A stretch of 64,000 nucleotides of DNA, taken from the IMG/VR virus record IMGVR_UViG_3300006928_000001, positions 1 to 64,000 of that record. One strand, 5' to 3'. Under the pieces are notes generated by a model. The model was not told where the DNA came from and searched no databases. It saw only the letters and a program-made list of their open reading frames with translations. The stretch comes from a virus. Both the position numbers and the translations under genes were made by a program. Below are positions 9,535-57,892 of this stretch, in pieces (position 1 is the stretch's first letter; every line of letters starts with the position of its first letter).

Positions 9535-12500
9535 CAGATAGCGCCCTGACGGTTAAGCTCGTCGCTATCAGTTGCAGTTTCGTACAGTGGGGTAGTAGAG
9601 CTGAGCGTACTGATACTATTGGCGCGGTTAGCGATCATCACATTGTCAGTCCCGGATACCGCGATTTGGCCGTTGGCAATAGACCCAGCAACAACAGAGT
9701 TGTCACCGCTGATGTCTAGCGGACCAACATTTCCACTCCAGCAGTTGTTACCACCTGTATCAGTAGCCGTAGATCCGTTCCAGTTGTTACCTGCCATGGC
9801 GCATAGAGAACTACTCACGTCAATACCAGCGTTAAAGTGATTCCCAGCAACTGCTACATCATCACCAGCACAGTCAAAGTTTCCGTGTACGTAATTACCA
9901 ACAAAGGTGCAGTTGTCAAAGTCAAGCTGGCATGACCCGGTAAGTACGTTCCCAACAATCGGTAGCTGTTGAGAGCTGGTAGTTCCTCCCAGCTTATTGA
10001 ATACGTTACCAATGAATGGGCTTGTGACGATCGTAGAGCCTGCTGTAACCGGTTCAGCCTCGTCCGGGGCGAAGTTACCCATAATCACGCATTGAGACGC
10101 GTTGTTACTGTTTTCAGTTACAAAGAAGTTGTCATCATCATAGCAGCTGTTAAACGCTACGATGCTTCTAGTCACATCTAGGAAGTAGTTGGCTGTAGTG
10201 GCGTCACCCATCATGTTACCAACGATGAGAAGCCGCTGCTTAGTAGTACCACCACCACAGTCTAGACCGTTGTTAACACCACTACCAAGATTACCTAGGA
10301 TGATAGATTCTTCGCACCCTGTAGGCAGGGTGATGTCGGCTTGTAGAGCCCCACCCGCGTCATCACCACGCATGACTAGATTGCCGGAAACGATTGACTT
10401 ACCAACCAGTGGGTTAATACCAACTTCTGGTGTGTCAATGACATTACCGAAAATTATCTGGTAGTCCTTTGGTGTAGAAGTACTCTGAACGGTTGCAAGA
10501 ATACCGTACACCGATAGCGGACTAGAACCAGCGGAATTACCGGTAGCTCCCGTAAGATTCAGCATGTTAAGTGCGCAAACGTTTTGGTCGTCATCACCTG
10601 ACTCGAGACCCAGATCAATCGCGATAGGATTTTCTCCGGTCATGGTGATCATGTTCATGGCTTCGATATTGTGGTTAGTGGTATCAGTAGTACCACCAAT
10701 TCGAATACCGTACAGCTCAGCTTCGATGTTGTTGAAAGTCAGCATACAGTTCTTGGTCAGCCAACCATAAATTCCGACACCAACGTCTTTGATGTCGTTA
10801 CCAGTGATCATTCCCTTCCAACCGTTACCAGTCGCAACGATTCCGACGTTAATCAAAATCCCAGCTTCCGCGGAACTTCCTGTGCCGGTAATCTTGTTAT
10901 CTTTAATCCACATCATCGTATTATCACTAGACGATTCGCAGTGAATTCGGATAATACCATCAGTACCGGAAATAGTTCCGCTAGCCGTAAGTACGTTATC
11001 GGTAATCCAACCAGTAGTGTTCGTTGTACCTGCAGGGTCGCCCAACCGAATGACCCTTTGAGAGTCAGTCGTAAGGTCGTTCTTTTCTACCCTTAGATTG
11101 GTAGCGGTTATGATACGAATGCATGGGCTCTCAGCAGTGGCATCACAGTACGTAATCCGCGGATTAATCATTGTCCCACTAGACTCCCAGAACACAAGTG
11201 CTTGTTCTGTCCCGGCTGGAGTTCCGTATGAGCCGGAGTCGGAAAGCAGGAAACAGTTATTCATCTTAAGGTCTGACAACGAGCACGTTGCAGACGAGCT
11301 GGCATAAACGTAGCACCCGCCCATGTACGCTTTACAGTCAGTAAATTCAACGTCTCCAATAGATGAATTTCCGTCAGCCACCAGCACGTGTGCTAGTTGT
11401 CCTCCGCCGCCGTTTAGTGCTCCGCCGCTGATAGTAGACAAGTATGTGTTACCATCAAAAAGACATCGCCTAAATGCCAGTCCACTGATGATTCCAGCTG
11501 AGCTGACAATGATAGAGTCTGTGTCAGCAGTACCAGTCCCTGTATATCTGAAAGTAATGTTTTCAAACACCCAACCAGTGAGATTGACCCCTGGCTCAAA
11601 CAGTGCGTTACCCGTATGGCTCCAAATGATACGACCTTCACCATGGCCCTGATGAATTGAGTCGCCTCCAGACTGTCCGATGATAGTCACATTCTTCAAG
11701 TTGAAGAAGTCATCTTCTGTAATCTCGGCAGCAACAGTACAGTCACCGACAATTTCGATTCGAGTGGATCGCTGAGGCATACTGCTGGCAGCCATAGCTG
11801 CTGCGAACGCCAGCGCGTTTTCTAGCGTATCAAACTGAGCACCGTGATCATCCTGATCATCAGAGACCGTCAAGGTCAAGCACTCGTTATGCTTAGTAAA
11901 GTTGCGAGTGAGGTACCTTAGAGTACCAGATACTCTCAGACCAGACCCGTCTGTGTCAAACTGGATGAATGGTACTACTGTATCGTCATACACAGCATCA
12001 TTAAGCGTAGTCGTAAACGCAAAATCTGCAACTGTAGGATCAGAATCATAGTAAACGTAGATCGTTGAGTTGATCGTAAAGCTAGTCAACGACGCGGTAG
12101 GAGGATCATACTCTTTCCCGCTAATGAATGCTGACCCTCCAGCGGTGATATTGAGCGTTGCTCCACCACCAGCAAAAGACGAAGTAGGTCGTTCAAACCA
12201 CCCACGCCGCCAAAGATTGTCCATAGCAGTCGTAGACGCATCTACCCAGTCTGACAGAGTATCAGTAACCTGTTGGCCAGTCGTACTATGAGTTTCAGAA
12301 CCAGTAGCCGACGCGGTAGTTCCGATATGAACGTACGCATCATTACTATCGAAGTCAGTGGTCGTAATAACCGGACCAAGAATCGTAATCTTGTAGTGTG
12401 ATGCCGTTGTACTAGCAGGCGACTGTCCAAGGTACCCATCGCCAATTCCGTCCAGGTTGACGAGCCAATCTGTGTTTCCAGATCGCTTCCACAGTTTGGC

Positions 12501-15242: not shown

Positions 15243-17462
15243 TCAGGGTAGGACGATGATGATGTTAGTATCAGGATCGAACGTTGAATCTAGAACTGGT
15301 AGTTCGTACGTCCCTAGCTGGACAAAGTCTCCAGCATCGTAAGTATCAACGCCGTCGCTAGTACTGATCTCGATAAAAGTGCGATTAGGAATAGCGTTCC
15401 ACAGCAGCCCAAATAGAACAGCCATTGGTACCTTACCACCAAATGACCATCGGAACGTTCCGTTTTCATCTCTAGAGTGCGGTGAGAAGAACGTACGAAT
15501 TACCTGTTCTGCCTGAGCTCTGACGTTCTCAGAGCTTGGGACGTACACAGTAATGGTTGGTAGCAGACTGCGGCTGACGAAAGCCGATACAATCGCTTCT
15601 GTATTTTGAGGACCGTGCCCACCAACGACTTCGATACCCACTTCAGTTCCGTTAAGCCATACTTCAGCCTCTGCTGCATCGGCCGATGAAACGGTACCCA
15701 GTGGATCGTTTTCTGATCCAACTACCAGAACGCGGTATTGACGCGTACCAGCCCCTTCAAGAGTGTAAAACGCACGAGAGAATGGCTTACGACCATCTGA
15801 CGTCGTGAATGTTGCTCGGTTAGGCGCACCACCAGACAGTGCGGTGGTGACTTCTGGCGCCGAGATAACACTTTCGGCCCTAAGTGCTAGCTGTGGTACG
15901 ATATTAAACCTGAATCGCTGTGTGCTATCGTAGTCACTGCACTCTTTTTGCATGTACCCTTCAGTTCCACGTGGAAGAACAAAGGATGAGACCAGCCCTG
16001 GACCACCTAGAGCCTTCACTTCAGACCCATCAGCTAGGTCTCCGGGTTGAGTAGAACCAGAGCGGAATGTTACGTAGACTGGTTCACCATTAGTGGGTAG
16101 TTGACCAACTGTTCCATCACCAAAAATGACACCCCAACCATCATCTACATCTTCAGAGAAGATACCGTGCTTTGACGAGGCTGTGGTAGCGGTAAAATCG
16201 TCAACGATCTCCCAGTCCGTATCAGTATCGATAGTAACTTCAACCTTAGGGTCACTAACTGGTTCATCAATCGGTTCTAGAGAAACAGAAATGAATTGGA
16301 ATTTAGTACCATCAGTTTGTCCGGCCGTGACCTGACGACGATATCCTTGAGTAATCATCACCTCTGCATACCAGCTACCATCAGTGTTCGTTGGTTGCTC
16401 TAGATCAATTAGTTCTGGAAATACCGCAGTTCCAGCTGGGTCACAGATCCGACCACGGATAGCCCAACCATACTCATCGTGCTCAGCCCAATCATTCGTT
16501 TCTGACTTCAGATCAGTGATCAGGAACGAAACTGTACCATCACCCGTCATGTCTGTCGTACCATCGACTACGGATGGAATGGGGCGCCAATCAGCTATGA
16601 CTTCGTAATCAGAGATACTAGTACTAGGAGTCGCTTGTCCCAAGTAAGACGTCACAGCTGTTGCTGGCGCTGATGTAGATGTGACAGTAACTACTTCTGT
16701 CACATTGGTAGGTTTATGCGTGATGGACACTTCCAGTCCATACGCACTATCACTTGCGTCATTTAGGTAGTCTGACAGATCGAACTCAAGAGTTCCGCTA
16801 ACCTCAGTAACAGAAGATGGCGACCCAGATTCGATATTGAAGTATTCCCATGAAATACTACCAGACGCAGCCGGATTTGAGTTGAATGCCAGGTCGACGG
16901 CATTGAACATTAGACCAGGAAAGCCAATGATAATAGCGTCATTCTCTTCCATAGAAATACCGGCTGCAGTGAATACTTGCTGAGTAGCAGTATCCGCAGA
17001 CGTATCATAAAACCAGGCGTCAAACGCAACGGACCCTCCCGTAGCGATATCCTCGTCAGCACTGTATGACGGGTCAGTGATACCTGCTTGTGCGAATCGC
17101 ATACCTTCAACAAGATAAGTCGTGTTGATTACCGGCGCTCCACTCAACTTACCATACACCTTCCCACGGCTAGGCTGCATGGGGAGAAGAGGGCGATTCA
17201 TATGCGCAAGCAACGCGATCATTGCACGTCTGGCAGAGATAGATCGAACGTCAAACTGCTTAAGTGCGTGGTTAGCCCTATTAAAAACGTGTGATCCAAG
17301 AGCCGTTGTCAACACCATCTGCTGTACAAACGGATCGATCAAATCCTTAGCGGTGTGTTCAGGGAAATGAAGCGACCGAAGTTGAAACATGACGTCTAGA
17401 ATATCGTCGAAATCGATGTTATTACTCGGTGGCCACCGAACATCTTGAGGCTGATTAGCCAT
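15243..17462 (-). CDS. Baseplate J-like (gp6-family) protein
   Basis: A 739-residue wedge component of the contractile-tail baseplate. The diagnostic region is WGVIFGDGTVGQLPTNGEPVYV followed by FRSG, the FGDGxxGxxPPxG pattern of the J/gp6 family, and a C-terminal part with TITVYVPSSE resembling the J end domain. I chose ATG 17462, which overlaps the stop of the gp25-like gene by eight bases. The frame is open upstream to 17570 but that part lies within the neighbour. Large beta-sandwich inserts in the middle (about residues 150-400) make it longer than P2 J (302 residues). Confidence 0.82.
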   Translation of the reverse strand: MANQPQDVRWPPSNNIDFDDILDVMFQLRSLHFPEHTAKDLIDPFVQQMVLTTALGSHVFNRANHALKQFDVRSISARRAMIALLAHMNRPLLPMQPSRGKVYGKLSGAPVINTTYLVEGMRFAQAGITDPSYSADEDIATGGSVAFDAWFYDTSADTATQQVFTAAGISMEENDAIIIGFPGLMFNAVDLAFNSNPAASGSISWEYFNIESGSPSSVTEVSGTLEFDLSDYLNDASDSAYGLEVSITHKPTNVTEVVTVTSTSAPATAVTSYLGQATPSTSISDYEVIADWRPIPSVVDGTTDMTGDGTVSFLITDLKSETNDWAEHDEYGWAIRGRICDPAGTAVFPELIDLEQPTNTDGSWYAEVMITQGYRRQVTAGQTDGTKFQFISVSLEPIDEPVSDPKVEVTIDTDTDWEIVDDFTATTASSKHGIFSEDVDDGWGVIFGDGTVGQLPTNGEPVYVTFRSGSTQPGDLADGSEVKALGGPGLVSSFVLPRGTEGYMQKECSDYDSTQRFRFNIVPQLALRAESVISAPEVTTALSGGAPNRATFTTSDGRKPFSRAFYTLEGAGTRQYRVLVVGSENDPLGTVSSADAAEAEVWLNGTEVGIEVVGGHGPQNTEAIVSAFVSRSLLPTITVYVPSSENVRAQAEQVIRTFFSPHSRDENGTFRWSFGGKVPMAVLFGLLWNAIPNRTFIEISTSDGVDTYDAGDFVQLGTYELPVLDSTFDPDTNIIIVLP

Positions 17463-17799
17463 TGAATTCGATCTCCGTCTGCTGACGTGCTTCTCGATCG
17501 GTAAACTTGAGCGAGTACGTACGAATGCCGTCAGCAATATCATCCTTAGACGAAGAGTCCTTAAACTCATCGATGTAGATGATTGAGCTTAGTCTCTGTA
17601 GCGTAGCTCTGATACGACCTTCTGCGGCTTGGTCCGTCTTAAACGCAACCTCACCTAGACTTAACGAACGAGGGTTGTACGGATTTTGACTTGTATCACC
17701 CAGCGTAAGCAATACAAGAATGGTTGTGGCATCAATACCTTTAACCATCGGAATTCGACCACCAACAGGAACAGGCGGCCATTTCATCACTTTAGCCAT
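17455..17799 (-). CDS. gp25/W-like baseplate wedge protein
   Basis: A 114-residue protein of the size and position of P2 W / T4 gp25, between V and J. The LGEVAFKTDQAAEGRIRATLQ region and the closing beta strands (RTYSLKFTDREARQQTEIEF) match the lysozyme-like gp25 fold pattern. It probably initiates wedge-to-sheath connection. Its stop overlaps the J-like start. Identification rests on synteny plus weak sequence pattern. Confidence 0.65.
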   Translation of the reverse strand: MAKVMKWPPVPVGGRIPMVKGIDATTILVLLTLGDTSQNPYNPRSLSLGEVAFKTDQAAEGRIRATLQRLSSIIYIDEFKDSSSKDDIADGIRTYSLKFTDREARQQTEIEFNG

Positions 17800-17802
17800 T
17801 GA

Positions 17803-17928
17803 TCAGAGCTCGTCGAGTGGACAAGGAAACACAAGACTGAACACTGGCAAAGACGGAAGTGGTGGAAGAACAATACCAAGTTCGAAAGATGGAATTGGTA
17901 GAGTCGGGAGTTGACACTTCGTAGCCAT
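17803..17928 (-). CDS. 41-residue proline-rich baseplate-locus protein
   Basis: A very short protein (41 residues) with regularly spaced prolines and hydrophobics (LPTLPIPSF, VLPPLPSLPVF, FPCPLDEL) and two cysteines. GGAG lies eight bases before the ATG. It sits three bases after the spike gene and three bases before the gp25-like gene. I know of no confident family. By position and composition it could be a spike-tip or spike-cavity peptide. The alternating P-L-P pattern suggests an extended polyproline-like chain. Confidence 0.6.
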   Translation of the reverse strand: MATKCQLPTLPIPSFELGIVLPPLPSLPVFSLVFPCPLDEL

Positions 17929-17931
17929 CGT

Positions 17932-18780
17932 TTAATCTCCGTAGATTCGTTTCGACAGGTAAGGAAGCCCAGAAGCGATTGATGTAGCCGCGTTCACACT
18001 AAAAGCCGTAGCGTTGACGGCTGTGTACGGGGCTCCGGCAGGAATTGCCAACCCGCAAGCTACAACATCATCAGCTAGCAATTTTAGTGCAGCTAGCAGT
18101 GTTAGCATTAACGGGTACGGGTGTACTGGTGGAGTGGTACCACCTCCCATTTCAATCGTACTACCTGCGATCTGGATGTTGCCACCACCCAACTTGGTGA
18201 TGTTACCGTCTTCCATCGCAAGGTATGATATACCATCTTTATGAGAGATCAAAACTCCGTCTGGATTCATTTGCAGTGCATGGTTAGCCGTAACACCGAA
18301 TGTACCTTCTTCCATGATTAGGCCGACACCATTGGCCGTACCCATTTGAATTCTGTCGCTACGTGGATCAATGTTAATGAACGACTGCTTTTCGGCGTCG
18401 GCTGTAGACGTTGCAATTAGGTATACGCCTAGATTATTGTCTAGAAGAATACTATGCCTACCATCTGGTGATCTAGCCCCTGCTCTTGTCTCAGGGTTGT
18501 CAGAGATGGAAGTCCAACTCTGACTAGAGCCCAGCCAACGGAATGAATTTCCACCAAGATGAGCAACGATAACGCGAACTGGTGCGGCATCGTCATCGGG
18601 GTTGGTGGGCCATGCAATCGAGTGCCAGCCGCCGAACGGCGAACCGGGATACATAGGTGCGATCAGTGCTGGACACTCGTCGTCCCTAAACAGCTGAGGA
18701 ATCTTCACCTTAATGTGTCCTGGCAGATTGGGGTCAGGGTTTCCGTCCGTGACCTCAGCCTCATAGAACTCGACCGGCAT
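17932..18780 (-). CDS. Baseplate spike protein (gpV/gp5-like)
   Basis: A 282-residue protein with an N-terminal OB-fold (PVEFYEAEVTD...LPGHIKVKIPQLF, the classic gpV opening), then SPDGRHSILLDNN and repetitive beta strands (GVGLIMEEG, HALQMNPDG, VLISHKDG, ISYLAMEDG, NIQIAGSTIEMGGG) typical of the intertwined triple-stranded beta-helix of contractile-tail spikes. It pierces the cell envelope on contraction. A hydrophobic Ala-rich C-terminal segment (LMLTLLAALKLLADDVVACG) extends beyond the needle. First gene of the P2-like V-W-J-I order here. Confidence 0.85.
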   Translation of the reverse strand: MPVEFYEAEVTDGNPDPNLPGHIKVKIPQLFRDDECPALIAPMYPGSPFGGWHSIAWPTNPDDDAAPVRVIVAHLGGNSFRWLGSSQSWTSISDNPETRAGARSPDGRHSILLDNNLGVYLIATSTADAEKQSFINIDPRSDRIQMGTANGVGLIMEEGTFGVTANHALQMNPDGVLISHKDGISYLAMEDGNITKLGGGNIQIAGSTIEMGGGTTPPVHPYPLMLTLLAALKLLADDVVACGLAIPAGAPYTAVNATAFSVNAATSIASGLPYLSKRIYGD

Positions 18781-18783
18781 GTA

Positions 18784-19677
18784 TCAGTCCTCGGTATTCA
18801 GCGTGAACTTGTCAGCATCGAATTCGTTCTTACTCATAAACGCCAACGTGTATCCGTTGGGACCCTTCTTGCGGGAGGTAGCACCATCGAGAATAGCTTC
18901 CGGCGGCCATCCCTGATCGAATGCGGATTCCATCGCCTCGAGTTCATCAATTGGGACAGCAACGTTAATCTTCTCAGACCATACTTCGCCATCATCCAAC
19001 TTTACCCCGGTAGGCTTACCAGAATTCTCCGCATCAGGTTCGCCATTGTCAACAGGTTTTCCGTCATCTTCACTAGACGTGTCTGACTCTGGTTCCTTGA
19101 CGTCTGGTGGCCCGCTCTTTGCGACATCCTCAGACTCCTCATTCTTCTTAGGCTCGGGAAGAATTGTGCGCCCTTCAATCTTAACCTGCTTAGGCTTACG
19201 CCGCTTCGGCTTAAGCGACTCCCAAGCTCGGGTGATCATTCCGGATAGAATTTCGTCGGGAAGAAGAACCATTCCGTCACGCTGAAACCTGTCGTTAAAC
19301 AGACTATGCTGAACTTCAGGCATAATACGACGTCCGCGAGCGCCGGCATTCTTTACCGCAACCTGCATGATAGACGTGATAATTTCGTCGTACGCAGACT
19401 CAGGGTGAATAACATCACTGGACTCAGTTGCTACGGGGTATTCGCTAAGTACCTGATCGTGAGTAACAAGTACGTCCTTGGTAACCACCTTTTCGTGCTT
19501 AACCCAATTACGTGGCTTGTTCCGTACAGGACGCCATCCACGCCCAGGACGACTCCCAGCCTTAGCACGACGCTCACGAACTCCACTTACGATATCAACG
19601 CGCTTTCCCTCAGTGGTTTCAACACCCACAGAGACAATGGGACAGACGCGTCCTCCGAAGATGATGTATTGCTGCAC
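18784..19677 (-). CDS. Hypothetical protein upstream of the spike gene, acidic linker
   Basis: A 297-residue protein without a recognised domain. The GTG start at 19677 has AGGAGG five bases upstream. The N-terminal half is basic (RERRAKAGSRPGRGWRPVRNKP). It is followed by a long Asp/Glu/Ser/Pro-rich low-complexity stretch (about residues 180-240) and a short ordered C-terminus. Gene position immediately before the spike suggests a tail or baseplate-associated protein, possibly a hub or tube-end factor, but no homology supports this. Confidence 0.6.
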   Translation of the reverse strand: MQQYIIFGGRVCPIVSVGVETTEGKRVDIVSGVRERRAKAGSRPGRGWRPVRNKPRNWVKHEKVVTKDVLVTHDQVLSEYPVATESSDVIHPESAYDEIITSIMQVAVKNAGARGRRIMPEVQHSLFNDRFQRDGMVLLPDEILSGMITRAWESLKPKRRKPKQVKIEGRTILPEPKKNEESEDVAKSGPPDVKEPESDTSSEDDGKPVDNGEPDAENSGKPTGVKLDDGEVWSEKINVAVPIDELEAMESAFDQGWPPEAILDGATSRKKGPNGYTLAFMSKNEFDADKFTLNTED

Positions 19678-19686
19678 TCGAACCTC

Positions 19687-21336
19687 CTACTCTACTGCAT
19701 CTATGATATATTCAGGAATGTAGCCAGACTTCATGATTCGCTCGAATCCGGAGTCAAGCAAGTACGTGATACCGTGGTCAGATGCAGACCTAACAACACG
19801 GCCAATACCTTGAACGGTAATCTGTGCTGCCTTCCACGTGTACCAAGCTGATGACCACCTTCTGTCAAGATTCTTCATCAGATACTCAACAGTTGGGTCT
19901 TTCATGTGTGGCCAAGGTGCTTTAGCCATAACCTGCCAGCGGCAAGAATCATCCGCACCATCCACGCCTTCCATCATAGACGGACCAACAAGAATCGCGT
20001 TAGGACCATACCCACCAGACAGAAAGCGTTGAATTACTTCAGTTCTAGCACCACCCCTTGGCAGCTGTTCAATCATACGGCCACCCATACGGCGGCGTAG
20101 AGCATCCGCTACATCTCCAGCCAAGTAATGACTGTGTGTATGAATGATTCCAGGTTCGTCATAATGAAGGTTTGCCAGTCGCTCAATTTTGTCAATCAGA
20201 GCAGGAAACGTACGGGTCCTGTTCTTGTAAGACATAGAACCAACGTAGTCTTTCTTAACGATACGGTTTTCAGGGTCAAATGCTGAAAGAATATCGATCA
20301 TCTCAAAGTTCTTGAGGCCTAGTTCTGCGGCAAACAGCTTAATGTGCAAGACGGTTGCGGTGACTATTAGAATCTTGTTACCCAGGCCGGTCAGTGCTTC
20401 AGCCATGGTAGCGACTTTCAATGGCTTAATCGTCCATCGACCTTGCGGATGCCACTGATTAGGTTCTTCCCACGTCGTTCCCCACGGGACGGAGCCTGAG
20501 TCAAGCAAAAACCGCTTGGCAAAACTTTCGTAGGAACGTTCTTCCTTCTCGTCAGAATTGTCATACATCTCTTGAAGTTCAGCTTCTTCGTAGATGCCGA
20601 AACCCTTTTTATGGGTTTTCATCTTCATGAGTGTAATGGCCATCTCCTCCGAGAGACCTCTCTGTTGTTCATCCATGTCAAGATACCGCAGTTGCCAACG
20701 TAGCCAAGGTAGGAAGAAGTCAGGATTCGCTGGTGGCTCGTCTGTAGTCAACGTCAATAGATCTTCTGGGTCGATAGTTGACGTCAAGTATGTTCTGATC
20801 CAGTCAACGGCAGTGTGACCCTCATCCATGCACAGCAATTCGCGCGGACCAAAATGAGATGAAATGTTCGCTTGAGCCATCAATGACGCATAACTATGCA
20901 TCACGATAGGTGAGTCTTGTGCTTCACTAAGAGCGGTGTAAAACGGACAGTTGCCGACACTGCATTCAGCTGGGTTCTCTTCTCGAATCTGTGGGTTCAG
21001 GTTACAAGGTGCATTCTTAGCCGTAACACTGGTACCGAGCATCAATGTGCATGAGTATGCTGACTTGCCCTTCATGATTTTCAGCTGTTCCCAACCACGC
21101 ATCTGATCTTGGAGAACCTTCTGTGGTGTACAGACATACGTTCCTTTGTTCAGCGTGGCAAGATACCTACCAAGTGCTAGCTGAATGATGCTCTTCCCCA
21201 CACCGGTAGGTGCCTGTAGAAAGACGACGTCTTTGTCGTCTATCCAGAAGGCATTAAAGATACGTGACAGCGCTTCTCTCTGCTGCGGCCGAAGTGTGAC
21301 TTCTGGTACGAGCTCTTCCCAGTCTGGTTCAATCAT
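19687..21336 (-). CDS. DinG/XPD-like superfamily 2 helicase
   Basis: A 549-residue helicase of the Rad3/XPD/DinG group. It shows Q-motif-like TLRPQQREAL, Walker A APTGVGKS, an inserted four-cysteine region (YSC...APC...AEC...GNC) consistent with an iron-sulfur cluster, the DEGH box (in MDEGHTAVD) and C-terminal motifs ending in GIGRVVRSASDHG (motif VI, Q-x-x-GRxxR). It unwinds 5'-3' in this family and could resolve D-loops, RNA-DNA hybrids or replication blocks. It is coupled to the small gene upstream by one base. Confidence 0.85.
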   Translation of the reverse strand: MIEPDWEELVPEVTLRPQQREALSRIFNAFWIDDKDVVFLQAPTGVGKSIIQLALGRYLATLNKGTYVCTPQKVLQDQMRGWEQLKIMKGKSAYSCTLMLGTSVTAKNAPCNLNPQIREENPAECSVGNCPFYTALSEAQDSPIVMHSYASLMAQANISSHFGPRELLCMDEGHTAVDWIRTYLTSTIDPEDLLTLTTDEPPANPDFFLPWLRWQLRYLDMDEQQRGLSEEMAITLMKMKTHKKGFGIYEEAELQEMYDNSDEKEERSYESFAKRFLLDSGSVPWGTTWEEPNQWHPQGRWTIKPLKVATMAEALTGLGNKILIVTATVLHIKLFAAELGLKNFEMIDILSAFDPENRIVKKDYVGSMSYKNRTRTFPALIDKIERLANLHYDEPGIIHTHSHYLAGDVADALRRRMGGRMIEQLPRGGARTEVIQRFLSGGYGPNAILVGPSMMEGVDGADDSCRWQVMAKAPWPHMKDPTVEYLMKNLDRRWSSAWYTWKAAQITVQGIGRVVRSASDHGITYLLDSGFERIMKSGYIPEYIIDAVE

Positions 21337-21743
21337 TACACGTGGTCCATATCAGGATTGTTGATGAGCCATCCCTGGCTCGTTGGTGTTGCCTCGTCAA
21401 GCTCGTGCTTCATAATCCATGAAAGCGCTTCAGCAACTACGACTCTAGGTGCGTCTTCATCTTCTTTAAAGAGCTCAACTGGAATTGGACGCTGCACAGA
21501 TACTTTGATGAATTTTACATGGTTCGAACTGGCATCTGGAGCCATGTATGTAACCACTAGTGATTGACCACTATGAATTCTGTCAAACACTACCTTAGCT
21601 GTTGGTTGCATGAGTTTTAGCAGCCCACGAAATTTGATGCTACTCCAAACTTCCATGACTTGATCGGCGATTGAACCAGGTGCGTAACTACACTCGTTTT
21701 GGTTTACAATCGGCACGTAAAGAGTCATGTATGAATCGTTCAT
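21336..21743 (-). CDS. Hypothetical protein
   Basis: A 135-residue protein with no recognised family. The middle part alternates hydrophobic and polar residues in a beta-rich pattern (SLVVTYMAPDASSNHVKFIKVSV), and the C-terminal third is helical and acidic. It overlaps both neighbours by 1-4 bases between the Topo VI-like/zinc-ribbon genes and the DinG-like helicase, so it probably belongs to the same replication operon. Confidence 0.65.
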   Translation of the reverse strand: MNDSYMTLYVPIVNQNECSYAPGSIADQVMEVWSSIKFRGLLKLMQPTAKVVFDRIHSGQSLVVTYMAPDASSNHVKFIKVSVQRPIPVELFKEDEDAPRVVVAEALSWIMKHELDEATPTSQGWLINNPDMDHV

Positions 21744-22126
21744 GACAACTTCCAGTCACAATCCCTGTTTGAACAGTACCTATTGCCCGATGTAGAATAG
21801 ACTTCATGACCACACATGGGGCATGGATACTTTACAACGTAAGGTTCCTGTTGATACATCTGTACGAACGCATCATTTGCCTCAAACAACGTTGGTAGCT
21901 TCATCCCGTTGATACTAGCGCCAGGAACCATCACAGGCAGGATCATCTTATCGAACCATGCCAGTAGCTTTTGACGCTGAACTTCAGTCATCTCTTCGTC
22001 AGGACCTATATCATCACAGATGAGTGTGTGAAACCGCTGCCCGATCAGAGGGTTGTGTTGCATCGGCTTGATGACTACTACGTTATCAGGGTCGTTAGTT
22101 ATGACTAGTAGTTTGTTCTTTTTCAT
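21740..22126 (-). CDS. Small protein with C-terminal zinc ribbon
   Basis: A 128-residue protein ending in a clear zinc ribbon (CPMCG, then 12 residues on CSNRDC). The upstream part holds VVVIKPMQHNPLIG and a helical region. It overlaps the start region of the 21336 gene and the end of the Topo VI-like gene (ATGA), so it is translationally coupled to the topoisomerase. It could be a DNA- or protein-binding adaptor for that enzyme, which is inference from linkage. Confidence 0.7.
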   Translation of the reverse strand: MKKNKLLVITNDPDNVVVIKPMQHNPLIGQRFHTLICDDIGPDEEMTEVQRQKLLAWFDKMILPVMVPGASINGMKLPTLFEANDAFVQMYQQEPYVVKYPCPMCGHEVYSTSGNRYCSNRDCDWKLS

Positions 22127-24747
22127 GACTGCTCCTGAAACAGGAGAGGAACACGCCGCTTCATCACGCGAGTCACTGCTTCATTGATGTCTTCACCACC
22201 TTGCGCTGCCCTAGTCACCAGGTATTCCCAATGCGTTTCTGGCCTACCTTCCAAAACTTTGTCCAAGTCATACGCCGGGACGCCAATCTCTCGCATGACT
22301 TCCATGACCATGTCTTCCCCGGCCAGCTTCATGAACACCGCACCCATCTCAGTGGTAACCTTGTTACGACGGGCCGTCTTCATCTTCTCTTCGACGATAG
22401 CATCTGGTGGGCGAACCTTCTTGCATCCATGCTTCTCCAAGTTCTTTTCGACCCATTGTTCGAATTCCTTAGGAGGCATCGCGTTAAGTTCAACTCGTCG
22501 ACCCTTCGGCTTGTCTACCCAATACGGGAATTCACCGGTACGAAACATCTTTGGCATGAACGCATCAAACGCTTCTGGTTCCATCAGCGGACGTTTTGTT
22601 CCGTCTGGGTCTACGATTTTATGTTTGGTCATCGTCTTATTGATCATAGACCAGTTATGCTTTTTAATCTCGAATGGTTCGTCTTGTAGTCCCATCTCGA
22701 CAGCATCCCGAATTGTTAGACCGACGTCGATGACTTCGATCTTAACGTTCTCGCCAAACCGGGGAAGGTTAGTGGCTAGGTCGTACCCAATCATGTATCC
22801 AGCTGGGTCTGCGTCGTGCAGGCAGATGATCTTGACCATGTCACCAAGAAGCTTCTTGTATTTCTGCAATACGTCACGAATGGCTTCAACCGCAAATCCC
22901 TTAGAGCCGACGATGATAGCGTCCCATCGCTTATCGATCTTCATCTGCCTCATCTGAGCGGCGAGGTTTTCCTTCTCAACGAAGATGATAGTATGACCCA
23001 GCCACTTCTTCGGTTTGAAGTCACGAACGTCTGCAGTGCCTAGACGAACGGTCTTGCCGTTGTGAGGTTCGTACATGGTCCCTCGAGGGTCCTTTAGACA
23101 GATAGCTTTACCAGCAACATTTCGTTCGTACTCATCGATATAAGCACAGAATGTCCCGTAGTGAAGCTCACGATCGTCTAGGACATACCACTCTTTACGC
23201 ATCGAGTAATAGAACTGACGAATCAACGGCTCGTACTTACCATTGTCGGTTACCTCCTTGAGTACCCTAGGGATCAAGCGAAATAGTTCAAGACGAATAG
23301 TATCTCGCTTCTGCTTTTTAGCCTTCTTTCGCTTAGTTTCCCCGTGGCGTTGACGGCGTACCTCAAGAGTTGCTTTTTCAAGACACTCAGATAGCGGAGC
23401 AGACAACCAGGACGTATCAAACTGTTGTTTCCCGTACCCGCTATATCCAGGACTAGGGCAGGTTACGTGGACAACAAACGAACAGGGTGTCTTACCATGG
23501 TCAATTTGGTATGCTCTAGCGATAGAGCCTAGGTCACCATTGATAGACAACCATTGTCCACGAACCTTATCACGATACTTGAATCCGTCTTTACCCTTGA
23601 AAGACGGAGACCCATACAAGAACGTTCTGTTCATAGCTAGAATCGGTTCTGGAGCCCGCCGTTTACCTTCTGGCATTTGCATCAGACAGACTTCTACAAG
23701 AAACGGAATCTCTGCCTCGTTGCTAGAAAATGTACCTGAAACCGAGTGGTACCAGTGTCCAGCATCCGCATCAGTACCCATTTCTTTCGTAAGAAATTGA
23801 GCGAGTCTTTCATCGCCCACGGCGTTAAACTGTGGGAACGTGGCCTTCTTAGACGTGACCTTCGACATATACTCGTAGACGCTTTTAACCTGCTTGACAG
23901 CGTTTTCAATTGGTACGTTATCAATTCCTTGGTTCCGCAGGTCTGATGGAGAAATACGAGAAAACGCGAATTCACGCATCCAGTCATACAGCTTATAGTT
24001 AGGCCTAGCTCTAACGTCAGCTGCCATACGCTCTGTAAACTCATCTAACGTAAACCAAGTAGACGCTCCAGCCTTATGGGCTTCATTCATGCATGGCTTC
24101 GTCTTGGTAGTGTTCATTGGTGGGGTTGACCAGATAGTCGACTTGTACATCACCATGAACTTCGCGTGTGGATTCATCCACGCAAATTGACGTACGGCGT
24201 CAAACACATCGTCTAGTGTTGATCCACCTCGCTTCCAAGGTAGTTCCGGTAGTGGGACTCGAATAGCTGATGGCTTTGGGGCACCAAATGGAATACGTAT
24301 CACATCGACTTTCTGCTTCACCTTGTCAAGATTGACCTGAAGTCGAAGCGAATGTCCACTAGGTCGGTACAACTCGATGTACCCAACATCCAACCATGCC
24401 GAGACGATACCCATAATCGTCATGATGGCGTTGCCCTGAGCACCTCGGGTGGGTAGCTTGTGATGTCTGTTACTACCACCAAATCTGTCAAAGTCCAGGA
24501 TGTTATCAAGAACCGCGTCTGAAATGCCAGGCCCGTTCTCCGCAACTTCGATATATGAATCAGTCAGTGTAACGCGAATCATTGGCGTTACACCGAACTC
24601 TTCAATTGCTGCTACGGCGTTATCCAGTAGTTCTTTTACTACGTACACTGGCCAACGGCCTTGGTTAACTCCGCATAGCTTAACCAACTCACTAGGCTGA
24701 AAATTAGACCAGGTACGAGAGTCGGAATGGAATACGCGTCCACTCAT
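22123..24747 (-). CDS. Single-chain topoisomerase VI-like protein (GHKL B part fused to Spo11-like A part)
   Basis: An 874-residue protein combining both halves of a type IIB topoisomerase. Residues 36-120 hold the GHKL ATPase: N-box KELLDNAVAAIEE (Glu39, Asn43), ENGPGI (70-75, with Glu in place of the usual Asp of DxGxG) and RGAQGNAI (101-108). Residues about 200-460 read like the transducer. A basic linker (about 470-482, KRKKAKKQKR) leads to a Spo11/TopoVIA-like part: RQFYYSM with the candidate catalytic tyrosine (513 or 514), then a Toprim fold with VEKEN (Glu591) and HDADPAG (Asp645, Asp647). It probably relaxes or decatenates DNA during phage replication. It resembles the Topo VIII class of bacterial mobile elements but is longer. 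Confidence 0.85.
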   Translation of the reverse strand: MSGRVFHSDSRTWSNFQPSELVKLCGVNQGRWPVYVVKELLDNAVAAIEEFGVTPMIRVTLTDSYIEVAENGPGISDAVLDNILDFDRFGGSNRHHKLPTRGAQGNAIMTIMGIVSAWLDVGYIELYRPSGHSLRLQVNLDKVKQKVDVIRIPFGAPKPSAIRVPLPELPWKRGGSTLDDVFDAVRQFAWMNPHAKFMVMYKSTIWSTPPMNTTKTKPCMNEAHKAGASTWFTLDEFTERMAADVRARPNYKLYDWMREFAFSRISPSDLRNQGIDNVPIENAVKQVKSVYEYMSKVTSKKATFPQFNAVGDERLAQFLTKEMGTDADAGHWYHSVSGTFSSNEAEIPFLVEVCLMQMPEGKRRAPEPILAMNRTFLYGSPSFKGKDGFKYRDKVRGQWLSINGDLGSIARAYQIDHGKTPCSFVVHVTCPSPGYSGYGKQQFDTSWLSAPLSECLEKATLEVRRQRHGETKRKKAKKQKRDTIRLELFRLIPRVLKEVTDNGKYEPLIRQFYYSMRKEWYVLDDRELHYGTFCAYIDEYERNVAGKAICLKDPRGTMYEPHNGKTVRLGTADVRDFKPKKWLGHTIIFVEKENLAAQMRQMKIDKRWDAIIVGSKGFAVEAIRDVLQKYKKLLGDMVKIICLHDADPAGYMIGYDLATNLPRFGENVKIEVIDVGLTIRDAVEMGLQDEPFEIKKHNWSMINKTMTKHKIVDPDGTKRPLMEPEAFDAFMPKMFRTGEFPYWVDKPKGRRVELNAMPPKEFEQWVEKNLEKHGCKKVRPPDAIVEEKMKTARRNKVTTEMGAVFMKLAGEDMVMEVMREIGVPAYDLDKVLEGRPETHWEYLVTRAAQGGEDINEAVTRVMKRRVPLLFQEQS

Positions 24748-24756
24748 TGGAAAACC

Positions 24757-24903
24757 TCACTCTTGGCCCCTCCCCTAAGGGGCAATTCCGTAGGGGTAGG
24801 AGACCCCTGGAGCTCACGAAGAGGGGTATGAGGGGAAGGATATACCCCTCTTAGTTTCGTAAGCCCCAGAGGCCCCACAGTGAAATACGGTAGCTTGGGC
24901 TAC
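24757..24903 (-). repeat. Cluster of four short inverted repeats in the intergenic region
   Basis: This gap holds several hairpins: GGTAGC/GCTACC overlapping the upstream gene's stop (24888-24903), AAGAGGGGTAT/ATACCCCTCTT (24819-24829 with 24842-24852, 11 bp perfect), AGGGGT/ACCCCT (about 24792-24808), and a GCCCCT/AGGGGC pairing (about 24760-24783). The 11-bp stem is a likely terminator for the upstream gene. The C-rich and G-rich blocks could also pair with each other. The rest of the gap holds the Topo VI-like gene's SD. Confidence 0.6.
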
Positions 24904-25637
24904 CACTCCCTCGGATCAGTATCCGGAGCAACAGGCAGATGACCGCGACGAGACAGCGATAGATAGTGCTTACCGTGTCGGCCGTCCAGCTTAATGTTGG
25001 CGGATGGAAACGCCTCTTTAAGAAGGCGGTTCAACTCTTTGTCACCAACCTGTGGGTTTTGAGCGATCAGATAAGCTGCCGTAAGCTTCTGAGTATTCTT
25101 ACGCTTCTTGGTAGCGATTCGAGCCGCGGTGCGTGGGGTACGCTCCAGCTTGACCCGGTTGCTAATTGAAATCTCTGACTGATGCTTGTACGACCAGAGA
25201 ATAACTCGGTTACCATCAAGACGCTGGAACGCCACGTTAGTGGAACTTGGAGTTACATAGATTCGACGAGGATCAAACTCATTTCGAATTGGGAGATCAC
25301 CAGTAGTGATCTCAAGACCATCTTCGATTTTGATGATACGAAGATTACCTTCATCCGTCTCAACCACTTCATTACGGAGCGGGAGTTGATCACCATAGTG
25401 GAGCTGGCCACACTGATTATCATCTTCAGTGTAAAATCGCCAACTCATCAGATCGCCTTCTTCCAAGCGGTATAGAGCGTACACGGGTGTAGCCTCTGAA
25501 CTCGCCTTTAGCTTCTCACGACGCCGAACTGCGCGCAACTCTTTCTTCAAGTCATCATGGCTAGCTTTCGTCCTCTTAGCGATCTCATTCGCCGGTTCTG
25601 CCTTGAGGATTTCTGCTCTCATCTTGTCTTTGGTCAT
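24900..25637 (-). CDS. RHGKHY-domain protein, probable DNA-binding (paralogue of 57223-57825)
   Basis: A 245-residue basic protein. The N-terminus is helical and charged (KKELRAVRRREK), the middle is beta-rich, and the C-terminal module reads LNRLLKEAFPSANI, DGRHGKHYLS, SRRGHLP. The same module occurs in the protein at 57223-57825 (LSNAFPNANI, DRHGKHYMS, ARHGRL), so the phage encodes two members. The Arg/His/Lys-rich motif suggests nucleic-acid binding. It is flanked on both sides by hairpins and so may be a single-gene transcript. Function otherwise unknown. Confidence 0.7.
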   Translation of the reverse strand: MTKDKMRAEILKAEPANEIAKRTKASHDDLKKELRAVRRREKLKASSEATPVYALYRLEEGDLMSWRFYTEDDNQCGQLHYGDQLPLRNEVVETDEGNLRIIKIEDGLEITTGDLPIRNEFDPRRIYVTPSSTNVAFQRLDGNRVILWSYKHQSEISISNRVKLERTPRTAARIATKKRKNTQKLTAAYLIAQNPQVGDKELNRLLKEAFPSANIKLDGRHGKHYLSLSRRGHLPVAPDTDPREW

Positions 25638-28181: not shown

Positions 28182-30608
28182 TTAAGCGGCGATATCGACG
28201 GCCTTAACGTCGCTAACGCCATCCCAAGACTTGGGCCCGCGCTCAGACGAACTGGCAAGCGGAACCTTAAGTCCAAAGAACGCAGTCATACACGACCGAA
28301 TACACCAATCAGTATGTGGTGTGTCAAGCTCTTCCTTAATCTCGTTCATCAATTCATCATGGATACAAGTGAGCACCCGTGCGTCAGTAGGGATGCGGCG
28401 ACGAATGATTGGATGAATCTCAGTGGCGTTGAATGCCTTACTCGCAAACATTTGACACGTGCGAACAAATCCAACCTTAAAGGCAGAAGCAGCCCAGCCC
28501 TGGATGAGACGGTTGAGACCAACGTACGCCTTACTGATAGGCAGATAGTACCTTCTACCGAATGGGTCAAAGACAAATCCACGCTGTCGAAGTGCCTTTT
28601 TGATGTTATCCTGAACCTGCTTGATTTCAGGTAGGCGACCGTGGTATTCACGCATGTACTGGTAACTTTGTGCCTTGGTCCAACCCTGGCCTCTAGCCAG
28701 CTTCTTTTGACCCATGCCGTATAGAATACCGAAGTTAATACCCTTGGCAGACTTGCGGTCCATACCAATTTCGTCAGCGACTCCTTGGTGAGCATCAAAC
28801 GGATTTTCTTCCATGGATAGATGACGTCGCCAATCAACATCGTACTTCGACTTGTCTGGCAATTCACCTGTTTCCATGTAGTCTCTAATGTACTTCAATT
28901 CGTCTGAGACTTGGTCATCCTGCATCGGAGTTCCGTACCCGTCACAGAACAGAGTTGCTCCTGTGTAGTGGGCAAATCCACGTAGCTCAACCTGACTGAG
29001 GTCCAGTAGCCTCATCATATGACCGGGCCTAGAGATGAACAGTGAGCGTACTGAAAAGTCTACAACTGGAGACCCGGGTTCAAGCTTCAATACCTTGGCT
29101 TCATCACCCTCTTTACACTTCGACATTACCATAACGTTCTTAGTGTACTCGTATTCACGAGGTGACAAGAACGCTTCGAGGATTCTAAATAGCAGATCAG
29201 CATTGACCAGCATCTTAAACCGCTTCGGTACCTGCTGCGCATTATAGTCAGCAGAACTCATACGTCCAGAAACAGTCCCAACTGTTCTTAGCCGATGAAA
29301 CATCAAATCTACCCAGTCGTCAACTACTGGGTAGTTAAACCATGGGTCAGGGCAGGCTTTAGCACCGAATGTCTCGGCGCGCTCATTAAACCACGCCAAA
29401 GCAGTGTTGCACTTTCGATAGACCTGAAGCATGAACATGAGGTCTTCATGTTCTGGATGTTGTTCGCCATAATGTTGAAGAGCATCAACATCAAGTGACA
29501 TGTAATCGATGATCGACTTATCACCGTATCCAGCCATAATCTTGACTTGGTCACGCTCTCTCATTTTCTTGAATGCATCAGTGGTATGCATCATGGACGG
29601 TTTAAAACCGAAGTCTTTGTTACGGAAGAGAATACCACGAAGCTGCTGGTTACTGCCAGGGTTCAACGTCGGCATCTTAAGGTAAGACCTTACCCAACGT
29701 GTAGCGACAGCTTGGAGAGTCGTAGCTGCTACCGTCTGACGTTCTGCCAAGTTGCGGTCATACCTAGTACCACGCATACCGGCAATGGTAGCTTGGATAG
29801 CTGACTCGATTTCTAGTTCGTATAGGTCAAGGCGGTATCGACGGTCAGGACCCCTGTACCACCACCATCGTGTGGGCGCTTGATAAATCCACTTGTACCA
29901 CTTGAGGAAAATCAATAGCGTGTCTGCAGCATCGTCCTGCGCGTAAAGACCAGCCAATGGAACTGGCGCGCGCCAAATGTCTGCGCCTGGCTTGAACTTA
30001 TGGTCTTTCAGCCAACGATCCATATCATTCTTGGTATCCAAATCACGACCAAGAACATCTTTCTGGAGGGGCTTAAGACCAATGAGCTCATTCCAACCAA
30101 CGCCCTTGTTTAGAACACGAGCCGCGATTTGAATGTCGTGCAGCTGACCTTCCAATGGCCAAACTATATTCTCGGCTAGCATGAAACCAAGCTCCATGCT
30201 AAGATTGTGTACTACAACCAATTTGTCTTTTGGTCTTTCTTTCATCCACTCGGAGAAGGATTGAATGACCTCCTTAGACGACGGCTGTATACCTCCAGCA
30301 AAGCGTTGATCATGCCGAATGCCAATGTATGCAGATTTCACTTTGCCGAGATCTTCATCTAGCCAAGCGATAGCGATCCCAGCTATTTTTGCGCCAAACT
30401 CGGGCCTAAGGGCTGAGGGGTATGCCTTGTTGACCTTCTTACCGATCTTCTTTGGTGCTAAGTCGATAGTACGACCATTTGGTTTGGTCTCAAAGTCGAA
30501 CCCAACGAACCGCGCCTTCATGGCTTCGGCAAGAATCAGGTCCCAATGCTCTATCGTCCAACATGTGGTGTAAAGGTCGATAGTGCGGTCAATAGACGGT
30601 TGAATCAT
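28182..30608 (-). CDS. polA: DNA polymerase I (family A) with 3'-5' exonuclease domain
   Basis: An 808-residue replicative polymerase. The DEDD exonuclease starts with FVGFDFETKP (Asp38, Glu40). Later exonuclease motifs are VVHNLSMELGF and YAQDDAADTLL. The polymerase domain has motif A LLDLSQVELRG, motif B RKSAKGINFGILYGMG (finger helix with Lys, Phe and Tyr) and motif C IHDEL (His750, Asp751, Glu752). There is no 5' nuclease domain, which is supplied by the gene at 3573. It overlaps the TS-family gene (ATGA). Family A polymerase points to a bacterial rather than archaeal host. Confidence 0.95.
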   Translation of the reverse strand: MIQPSIDRTIDLYTTCWTIEHWDLILAEAMKARFVGFDFETKPNGRTIDLAPKKIGKKVNKAYPSALRPEFGAKIAGIAIAWLDEDLGKVKSAYIGIRHDQRFAGGIQPSSKEVIQSFSEWMKERPKDKLVVVHNLSMELGFMLAENIVWPLEGQLHDIQIAARVLNKGVGWNELIGLKPLQKDVLGRDLDTKNDMDRWLKDHKFKPGADIWRAPVPLAGLYAQDDAADTLLIFLKWYKWIYQAPTRWWWYRGPDRRYRLDLYELEIESAIQATIAGMRGTRYDRNLAERQTVAATTLQAVATRWVRSYLKMPTLNPGSNQQLRGILFRNKDFGFKPSMMHTTDAFKKMRERDQVKIMAGYGDKSIIDYMSLDVDALQHYGEQHPEHEDLMFMLQVYRKCNTALAWFNERAETFGAKACPDPWFNYPVVDDWVDLMFHRLRTVGTVSGRMSSADYNAQQVPKRFKMLVNADLLFRILEAFLSPREYEYTKNVMVMSKCKEGDEAKVLKLEPGSPVVDFSVRSLFISRPGHMMRLLDLSQVELRGFAHYTGATLFCDGYGTPMQDDQVSDELKYIRDYMETGELPDKSKYDVDWRRHLSMEENPFDAHQGVADEIGMDRKSAKGINFGILYGMGQKKLARGQGWTKAQSYQYMREYHGRLPEIKQVQDNIKKALRQRGFVFDPFGRRYYLPISKAYVGLNRLIQGWAASAFKVGFVRTCQMFASKAFNATEIHPIIRRRIPTDARVLTCIHDELMNEIKEELDTPHTDWCIRSCMTAFFGLKVPLASSSERGPKSWDGVSDVKAVDIAA

Positions 30609-31567
30609 CGAAGATTAGCCTTCATCAGTCTGTCGTATTCTGGCCACAAATGTCTATCTCGGTTGATAGCGCCAATGAAAGGCTTTAGCCCATCATTTCC
30701 GTACGGGCAGTCACCAGTAAGAATCATCTGCCATACGTTCTTAAGCCTTCTCGTAGTATCAGCATGAAAGATGCTTTTAAAGCTCGGCAGTTCAGGTACT
30801 AGAACCTCAGGAATGTTAATCCTGCGACTGTAAATCGCATCAGCGTCGTCGAAGTTAGTACCATACAGATGGAGATTACTCAACACATGATTATACACGC
30901 CAGGCTCTAGTTCAAGCATAGACGCAACAACCCGTTGTACCGTTGTAAACGACAGTACGTCATACGGCATGCCGAGCCAAACATCGTGACTTCGCATGAA
31001 CACAGTCAGATTCAACTTGCCGTTACGAATAGTAAAGTGCCAAGCAACCGTACACGGAATGTCCTTGGATCGCCAGGAGTTTCCGTCCCATTCTGGCTGT
31101 TGAGGATCGTTGCTGGAAACAACACCAGCTGACTTCAGTGTTGGATAATCATCCTGACCTTCGTGCGGATGAGGATACCCGTTAAACGGACCAACTTGAG
31201 GTCTCCAAGTAGTTACTATAGCTTGACGGCTATCAGGATCGCGTTGAAGGGTCGCGACAACGTGATTGATCTGGCCCATAAGACGTGGCCCATAAGCTCC
31301 CCACAGAACTTTACCGTCATCACTAAACTGTGCCATGACCTTGTTGTAGTCACTGATGACTTTGACGTCATCGGACCCAGCAAGAATCCAAGCAGCTTCA
31401 GCAAAGCCAAAACGATAGTTCACCCGTCGGATTGGATCTAGGATGAAAGGCTTATGAACGTCAGTTAGCTGAAGAGTGACAGGCCACGGAACCTCATACA
31501 CTAGGTTACCACGTGGCGCTGACTCAACTCCATGCAACAAACATAATGAAAGGGCGTACCTCCACAT
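30605..31567 (-). CDS. Thymidylate synthase-family enzyme, probable dCMP hydroxymethylase
   Basis: A TS-family pyrimidine C5-methyltransferase or hydroxymethylase, 320 residues from ATG 31567. Family motifs include WILAGSDD, YNKVMAQFSDDGK, GAYGPRL, the nucleophile in DIPCTVAWH (Cys172), FMRSHDVWLGMPYDV and HLYG. Asp203 in MPYDV stands where true TS enzymes have Asn (LPFN, E. coli Asn177). That change marks T4-type dCMP hydroxymethylase and related dCMP-modifying enzymes. A separate ThyX-like protein covers dTMP. The frame is open to 31981, but that extension overlaps another gene in a different frame, has no well-placed SD and is not TS-like. Product could be 5-hydroxymethyl- or 5-methyl-dCMP. 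Confidence 0.82.
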   Translation of the reverse strand: MWRYALSLCLLHGVESAPRGNLVYEVPWPVTLQLTDVHKPFILDPIRRVNYRFGFAEAAWILAGSDDVKVISDYNKVMAQFSDDGKVLWGAYGPRLMGQINHVVATLQRDPDSRQAIVTTWRPQVGPFNGYPHPHEGQDDYPTLKSAGVVSSNDPQQPEWDGNSWRSKDIPCTVAWHFTIRNGKLNLTVFMRSHDVWLGMPYDVLSFTTVQRVVASMLELEPGVYNHVLSNLHLYGTNFDDADAIYSRRINIPEVLVPELPSFKSIFHADTTRRLKNVWQMILTGDCPYGNDGLKPFIGAINRDRHLWPEYDRLMKANLR

Positions 31568-31608
31568 GGAGTCGCCTGTTTTGAAAGTAGGGACCCCGAA
31601 TGAAGGGT

Positions 31609-31962
31609 TTACTGTTTCTGAGACTCGCTGGAAGCTGCCTTTGAGGAGGTCTTCGACCGAGACTTTGAAAGCTGCTTCGAGGCTACGGTCTTGGATTCGA
31701 CCTTGGGTTCGGCCGAGGGTGCGATGGGCGGTGGCGCATGTTGGTGCCGACCGTACACTCTCCGGAAAATTCTCAAACTCTTCGAGAGTCCCGGATCGGC
31801 CTGAATCAAGGAGAGCCCTTCTCGGTGAAACTTGATGGTCTTCGTCTTTGGCGTCAACTTCAGTGTATCGTCCGTCAGGCGGTTCCACGCCTCCAGAAGG
31901 TTGTGAAATGTCTTCTGATTGCGCTCCGGCATCCGGAAGATGATGTCCGCCTGGAATTCCAT
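31609..31962 (-). CDS. Small protein with Lys/Ser-rich tail
   Basis: A 117-residue protein. The ATG at 31962 has a near-perfect AAAGGAG seven bases upstream, which is why I accept this frame over the longer overlapping one. The first 75 residues are probably folded. The last 40 are disordered and basic (PPPIAPSAEPK, then KSRSKTSSKAASSESQK), suggesting nucleic-acid or protein tethering. It ends 41 bases before the TS-family ATG. No family recognised. Confidence 0.7.
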   Translation of the reverse strand: MEFQADIIFRMPERNQKTFHNLLEAWNRLTDDTLKLTPKTKTIKFHREGLSLIQADPGLSKSLRIFRRVYGRHQHAPPPIAPSAEPKVESKTVASKQLSKSRSKTSSKAASSESQKQ

Positions 31963-32016
31963 GACTATCTCCTTTGGACACAGTCTACCCCTTATCAGTC
32001 TAGTGAACCATGAGGT

Positions 32017-57222: not shown

Positions 57223-57825
57223 TCAGGCAGCTTCGCTCTTAGCCTCAACGATCTTCTTCGCAATCGTCTCAGGCTTCCAGCGGGTAGTGGCCTTGATGCC
57301 AAGTGCACCAGCCATTTCTACGAGGGTCTCATGGTCGTTACCCTCCACCAGGAGAGCAACGGTCAACTCAGGTGCATCCTTGGCCTCTTCCAAGTCTGCC
57401 TGGACCTCTTCCTTCTGACGAGTCTTACGCACCGCGTGCGGAATCGGCGGAAGGTCTTCACGAAGACCCTTCAGTCGACCGTGCCTGGCGTGGCTCATGT
57501 AGTGCTTACCATGTCGGTCACTGATGTTAGCGTTCGGGAACGCATTCGACAAAGCAGTAGTCAGGTTGCTGTCATTGAACGGGACCCCCTCGCCGATAGT
57601 GAGGTTGATAAGCACCGCAGCAAAGTGACCCTGGGTCGAGATACCCTGCATCCGGAGGTAAGCTTCCGCTCGATCCTCTTCCGTAGAGCCCTTAGTGACA
57701 GCAATGTTGGACTTCTCCAGCTCACTGTCGATGGTAGAGAGCTCCACAACGGACGTCATGACAGTGGCCGCTGCTCGGACGTCAAAGAAACGGGCGTTCT
57801 TGTTGTTGGTGTTAGCGTCAGACAT
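57223..57825 (-). CDS. RHGKHY-domain protein with C-terminal HeH/SAP-like segment
   Basis: A 200-residue paralogue of the protein at 24900-25637. Shared core: LSNAFPNANI, DRHGKHYMS, ARHGRL. It differs by having an acidic middle (KEEVQADLEEAKDAPE) and a C-terminal helix-extended-helix pattern (HETLVEMAGALGIKATTRWKPETIAKKIVEA), common in DNA-binding phage and archaeal-bacterial proteins. Wobble positions are C-rich, as in other likely abundant proteins here. ATG 57825 has AGGGG upstream, and a TATACT box lies about 70 bases before it. Confidence 0.7.
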   Translation of the reverse strand: MSDANTNNKNARFFDVRAAATVMTSVVELSTIDSELEKSNIAVTKGSTEEDRAEAYLRMQGISTQGHFAAVLINLTIGEGVPFNDSNLTTALSNAFPNANISDRHGKHYMSHARHGRLKGLREDLPPIPHAVRKTRQKEEVQADLEEAKDAPELTVALLVEGNDHETLVEMAGALGIKATTRWKPETIAKKIVEAKSEAA

Positions 57826-57892
57826 GATGATTCCCCTCATCGTGGCCCGGTGGATGATGGAGAAGGAGTGGGCCTTGCCCCTTCCCTAGATT

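Follow-up and report, generated by a model that had tools for sequence, protein, structure and literature searches.

A single-chain topoisomerase of the Topo VIII type in the genome of a contractile-tailed phage

The DNA analysed here, referred to as the window, is a stretch of 64,000 nucleotides (positions 1 to 64,000 of the IMG/VR virus record IMGVR_UViG_3300006928_000001). A gene for a protein of 874 amino acids was found on the minus strand at 22123-24747, reading from 24747 to 22123. It has an ATG start, and no internal stops were present in a check of the open reading frame. The reading frame, homology and structure models identify the product as a single-chain type IIB topoisomerase of the Topo VIII type, in which the B and A parts are fused (GHKL, H2TH-like segment, transducer, winged helix and Toprim). 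The GHKL ATPase domain consists of residues 1-212 (24112-24747, minus strand, as are all parts of the gene given below) and was recognised from invariant columns and a Foldseek match to Topo VI-B; its boundary is approximate and was taken from the model. It contains the N-box KELLDN (38-43), with Glu39 assigned as general base and Asn43 assigned to Mg, the motif AENGPGI (69-75), with Glu70 in the place of Asp, and the lid RGAQGN (101-106). The middle region of residues 213-323 (23779-24111) is H2TH-like, as judged by the Topo VI-B profile alignment and the helices of the model. In the transducer (residues 324-448, 23404-23778) the pair GK at 439-440 places the invariant Lys440 at the switch-lysine position of Topo VI. 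A stalk helix and basic linker (residues 449-483, 23299-23403) connect the B-like to the A-like part; the model helix spans 449-477, and the basic linker, visible in the sequence, is 464-481, RRQRHGETKRKKAKKQKR. The winged-helix domain of 5Y-CAP type (residues 484-580, 23008-23298) matches the fold of Topo VI-A/Spo11 and carries the motif RQFYY (510-514) with the presumed catalytic Tyr514, which is present in 55 of 55 relatives. It is followed by the Toprim domain (residues 581-715, 22603-23007), where VEKE (590-593) and HDADPAG (644-650) supply E591, D645 and D647, and by a C-terminal part (residues 716-874, 22126-22602), recognised from nearly invariant columns and model helices, with the family signature RVELNA at 751-756.

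The first-pass annotation had described a single-chain Topo VI-like enzyme in a phage, with GHKL and Spo11/TopoVIA-like motifs, a full-looking transducer and a basic linker. The intact reading frame, the matches to Topo VI-B and Topo VI-A and the phage genome itself bear this out. Every motif that it named is present, the profile match extends through the transducer and the linker is basic as described.

Three genes follow on the same strand. The first (21740-22126) encodes a protein of 128 amino acids with a C-terminal Cys4 zinc-ribbon-like motif, and its start overlaps the topoisomerase stop by 4 bp. The second (21336-21743) encodes a protein of 135 amino acids with no assigned function and overlaps the first by 4 bp. 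The third (19687-21336), with an overlap of 1 bp, encodes a DinG/Rad3-type superfamily 2 helicase of 549 amino acids (phrog_2488, 1.6e-80; PF13307). Because of the 4-, 4- and 1-bp overlaps, co-transcription of these genes is likely. The helicase also matched a type IV CRISPR-associated DinG model (1e-55), and no cas genes were noticed nearby.

A second phage contig of 91.9 kb, L008, carries a 65% identical topoisomerase inside a syntenic block of 20 kb. The polymerases of the two phages are 59% identical and the helicases, which are likewise syntenic, 53%. Only the N-terminal part of the 128-residue protein is conserved in L008, whose homologue has no Cys4 ribbon. The zinc-ribbon protein and the DinG-like helicase were thus found as neighbours as the first-pass annotation had stated, but its proposal of a dedicated module holds only weakly. 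The helicase and the N-terminal part of the small protein are syntenic in L008, but so is the whole 20-kb block, and the zinc-ribbon protein and helicase were absent beside all other Topo VIII loci inspected. A zinc-ribbon-coupled module as a general feature was rejected on these observations.

The contig of 107,823 bp has an exact direct repeat of 123 bp at its two ends (window 1-123 and L105 3701-3823). The phage genome therefore appears to be complete, at about 107.7 kb, and circular or terminally redundant. Terminase, baseplate, tail sheath, tape measure and head proteins are encoded, and the contig is that of a contractile-tailed phage that is distant from those in culture. Its replication genes include a PolA-type polymerase, primase, helicases, NAD ligase, nucleotide-metabolism enzymes and a clamp-loader-like ATPase. 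A type IIA or IA topoisomerase was not found in the phage genome by matches to the two Pfam families PF00521 and PF01131. Shine-Dalgarno-like sequences before some genes, together with the PolA/NAD-ligase set, suggest a bacterial host, in contrast to the nearest relatives of the topoisomerase, which are archaeal. A tRNA scan of the contig gave none, so no hint of the host came from tRNA. Two different thymidylate synthase families were matched by the proteins at 2152-3573 and 30605-31981 (both minus strand); the phage may have two thymidylate synthases or one derived activity, for instance in base modification. The approximate stretch ANI..DGRHGKHYLS..RRG is common to two otherwise different proteins at 24900-25637 and 57223-57840 (both minus strand), the first of which is conserved in L008, and is possibly a small domain used twice.

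Pfam gave TOP6A-Spo11_Toprim (PF21180, 5.7e-8) above the cut-off, HATPase_c (1.6e-5) just below it and Topo-VIb_trans at 0.036. A PHROGs 'DNA topoisomerase' family matched the cleavage half (1.4e-6). NCBIfam gave weak matches to Topo VI-B and then Topo VI-A, in the expected order, with 45.6 bits against a cut-off of 274 for NF003218 and 30.8 against 380.7 for TIGR01052. Topo VI proper was rejected on these curated cut-offs and on the presence of a single gene. A family profile searched against PDB matched Topo VI-B with 1.4e-32 over the GHKL domain, the H2TH-like region and the transducer, Topo VI-A with 2.1e-16 and Spo11 with 0.013; this alignment also covers the part of Topo VI-B that lies between GHKL and transducer, which corresponds to residues 213-323 here. 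HHalign gave a co-linear alignment with Topo VI B+A (E 1.9e-27). The full-length AF2 model had a pLDDT of 83.5 and a pTM of 0.57, so the placement of domains in it is uncertain; its best PDB match by Foldseek was Topo VI-B (9.4e-20). The C-terminal half was modelled with a pLDDT of 92.5 and a pTM of 0.88, and all ten of its ten significant PDB matches were Topo VI-A or Spo11. In the profile check that had been proposed, the two halves therefore come out first with Topo VI-B and Topo VI-A/Spo11, whether sequence or fold is compared. Among the viral proteins of BFVD, none had a good TM-score across both halves, and the best named matches were type IIA ATPase parts and rIIA-like proteins. The active site of Topo VI-A is formed at the dimer interface. 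That of Spo11 likewise assembles between two subunits, as PMC12871325 describes. Since the active site spans two subunits, the distance from tyrosine to Toprim in a monomer model is an unsuitable test.

A tblastn search of 50,697 phage records gave no relative, and a scan of viral contigs with the single protein as query gave none. Plasmids were more informative. Plasmid 5 of Halalkalicoccus jeotgali was matched with 95% coverage (4e-55), and other full-length relatives were found on pMPPla107, pBASL58 and pPPM1a of Paenibacillus polymyxa M1. The proteins of H. jeotgali plasmid 5, pMPPla107 and pBASL58 are reportedly founding Topo VIIIs (Gadelle 2014). PMC7614492 shows the P. polymyxa plasmid protein as its drawn example of Topo VIII. 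An alignment of the plasmid relatives was needed to find those in viral contigs, and it retrieved 15 loci from viral contigs and 80 from genomes; most of them encode a single chain, and some have two genes. Rescans with the L008 protein and with an alignment of the two phage proteins gave no additional close relative. A tree of 79 rows was built by a quick method with three Topo VI sets as outgroup, and its deep order is provisional. The window protein and that of L008 form a pair (support 100), with the H. jeotgali plasmid protein and a Thermoplasmatota contig as sisters (96). A long, fully supported branch separates Topo VI from the Topo VIII side of the tree, where the window protein is found together with those of pPPM1a and the H. 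jeotgali plasmid. Because the tree groups it with the plasmid Topo VIIIs, the window protein is a deep-branching protein of Topo VIII type and not a new enzyme class. The likeness to Topo VIII suggested earlier is confirmed by tblastn and tree, which both give it as nearest family, and membership of this known but little-studied family is near certain. In work by Takahashi from 2020, a short C-terminal motif reportedly separates Topo VI, Topo VIII and Mini-A. In the family of the window protein RVELNA hardly varies, and a different sequence is aligned there in Topo VI-A.

Residues E39, N43, R101, N106, K440, Y514, E591, D645 and D647 are invariant among the 55 aligned single-chain relatives. 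Given this invariance, the topoisomerase motifs are judged to be far above chance. Tyr513 and Tyr514 had both been put forward as catalytic; position 513 varies (Y/F/M/W/L) but Tyr514 is invariant, which makes Tyr514 the likely nucleophile. With the exception of Glu70, the GHKL motifs, switch lysine, catalytic tyrosine and Toprim acids of Topo VIII are all kept. The replacement of Asp by Glu in DxGxG, noted in the first-pass annotation, is true of this protein but private to it: Asp is present in 53 of the 55 relatives, L008 included. It is, on the alignment, a conservative one-off change. The Asp at this position contacts adenine in GHKL enzymes, and Glu70 might weaken the use of ATP. Compared to L008, the Toprim domain is 79% identical, the winged-helix domain (WHD) 77% and the GHKL domain 67%; the H2TH-like region (residues 213-323) is the least conserved part, with 43%. 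First, second and third codon positions differ by 29, 20 and 63%, and the gene is, in this comparison of two sequences, under purifying selection.

Terminase families were found in six of the other Topo VIII-bearing viral records (L010, L011, L013, L014, L018 and L021), and some of these may be prophages. In L010, a phage unrelated to this one, a single-chain Topo VIII is encoded at 8162-10654, and genes for primase, terminase (phrog_9) and a major head protein lie nearby; the genes at 16752-18296 and 18327-19949 accompany its Topo VIII. This is apparently an independent capture. Because terminase families are present in these records and L010 is unrelated, Topo VIII was probably captured by phages more than once. 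Loci with B and A in two adjacent or overlapping genes, often planctomycete (L015, L017, L035, L036, L077, L078, L083, L084, L086, L089, L090, L094-L096 and L100), are interspersed with fused forms in the tree, pointing to repeated fusion or fission. The closest cellular-binned relative, L023, is a Thermoplasmatota contig of 18.7 kb in which several ParB-like and DNA-methyltransferase genes surround the topoisomerase, which suggests that the contig derives from a virus or plasmid of archaea and not from a chromosome.

We consider it probable that the window protein forms homodimers and is active as a type IIB, Topo VIII-type topoisomerase that serves phage replication. Two chains, each with a Topo VI-B-like ATPase/clamp and a Topo VI-A-like DNA-cleaving part, would bind the gate segment, and Tyr514 of each chain would act in cutting both strands, with Mg held by E591, D645 and D647 of the Toprim domain. 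ATP would close the GHKL gate, the second duplex would be passed and the break resealed. Supercoils could in this way be relieved, and daughter or concatenated DNA separated, during the phage's own replication. Relaxation activity has been measured for the Topo VIII of the P. polymyxa plasmid (PMC7614492), and decatenation is also performed by some Topo VIIIs (PMC8084294). The characterised enzymes are weakly active and many Topo VIIIs appear to be inactivated (PMC7614492); these points, Glu70 and the uncertain domain placement in the full-length model count against this reading.

A use resembling that of Spo11, mainly for double-strand breaks without efficient strand passage, could start recombination-dependent phage replication or break the host DNA. 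In its favour, one characterised Topo VIII, that of Ammonifex degensii, is limited to cleavage (PMC7614492), conservation between the two phages is highest in the cleavage half, and Glu70 is unusual for an ATPase. However, E39, N43, the lid R101-N106 and K440 are all kept, as expected under selection for ATP-driven strand passage, and the L008 homologue has the normal Asp, so a Spo11-like use is considered unlikely. Topo VI-A-like Toprim nucleases also work in plasmid defence (PMC10123090), and a defence or exclusion nuclease against competing DNA, similar to the Topo VIA-like proteins MksG/JetD of plasmid defence, could be imagined. This is very improbable for a protein with both the ATP-binding domain and the 5Y-CAP tyrosine that are missing from MksG (PMC10123090), with no PADLOC match and with its gene in a run common to the related phage, replication genes included; MksG/JetD, a Wadjet-type nuclease that comes with condensin partner genes, was rejected as an identity on the ATPase domain, Tyr514 and PADLOC result. 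It is just as improbable that the gene is a decaying passenger taken from a plasmid, with no present function, even if many Topo VIIIs seem to be at some stage of inactivation (PMC7614492). In the sister phage the topoisomerase is conserved more strongly than polymerase and helicase, third codon positions differ two to three times more than first and second positions, and the catalytic residues are intact except for the conservative D-to-E change. From the constraint seen, the passenger-gene reading appears largely refuted.

A wider proposal, which we put forward tentatively and lean slightly against, is that one lineage of tailed phages depends on a fused Topo VIII as its only, essential topoisomerase for replication, much as T4-like phages use type IIA enzymes, and that phage and archaeal-plasmid Topo VIIIs make up an old branch which has been exchanged between viruses and plasmids across domains. 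As in T4-type phages, a phage type II enzyme is found beside a replication gene set, and the analogy of role would follow from this; the T4-type type IIA topoisomerase has another cleavage fold and several subunits, and no type IIA match was obtained in the window phage. With polymerase, primase and helicase genes present and no other recognised topoisomerase, the role of Topo VIII can be tested here by deletion of a single gene.

According to reviews, Topo VIII is found on plasmids and integrated elements, and viruses have only the truncated Mini-A (PMC7614492, PMC8084294). No literature linking Topo VI or type IIB enzymes with phage genomes was found. Mini-A is, like the cleavage part here, a virus-encoded relative of Topo VI-A, but it is a truncated A-subunit homologue without a B part (PMC7614492); the complete GHKL and transducer half of the window protein led to its rejection. 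Both subunits of Topo VI (A2B2) are homologous to the window protein, with the same folds and catalytic residues, but are encoded by two genes instead of one and lie across the long branch. Topo VIII has the same one-chain B + A composition, domain order and invariant residues, full-length tblastn matches, grouping in the tree and carriage on mobile elements (plasmids and integrated elements there, a phage here; PMC7614492). The window protein differs from the plasmid forms, to which it is 24-29% identical, in Glu70 instead of Asp and exceeds the Paenibacillus form in length by about 120 residues. It also differs in its location, as those forms are plasmid-borne and this one lies in a complete contractile-tailed phage with replication genes. 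Single-chain enzymes are simpler models of the Topo VI/Spo11 mechanism, and a complete, constrained and catalytically intact-looking Topo VIII in a complete tailed-phage genome is a new setting for a known family.
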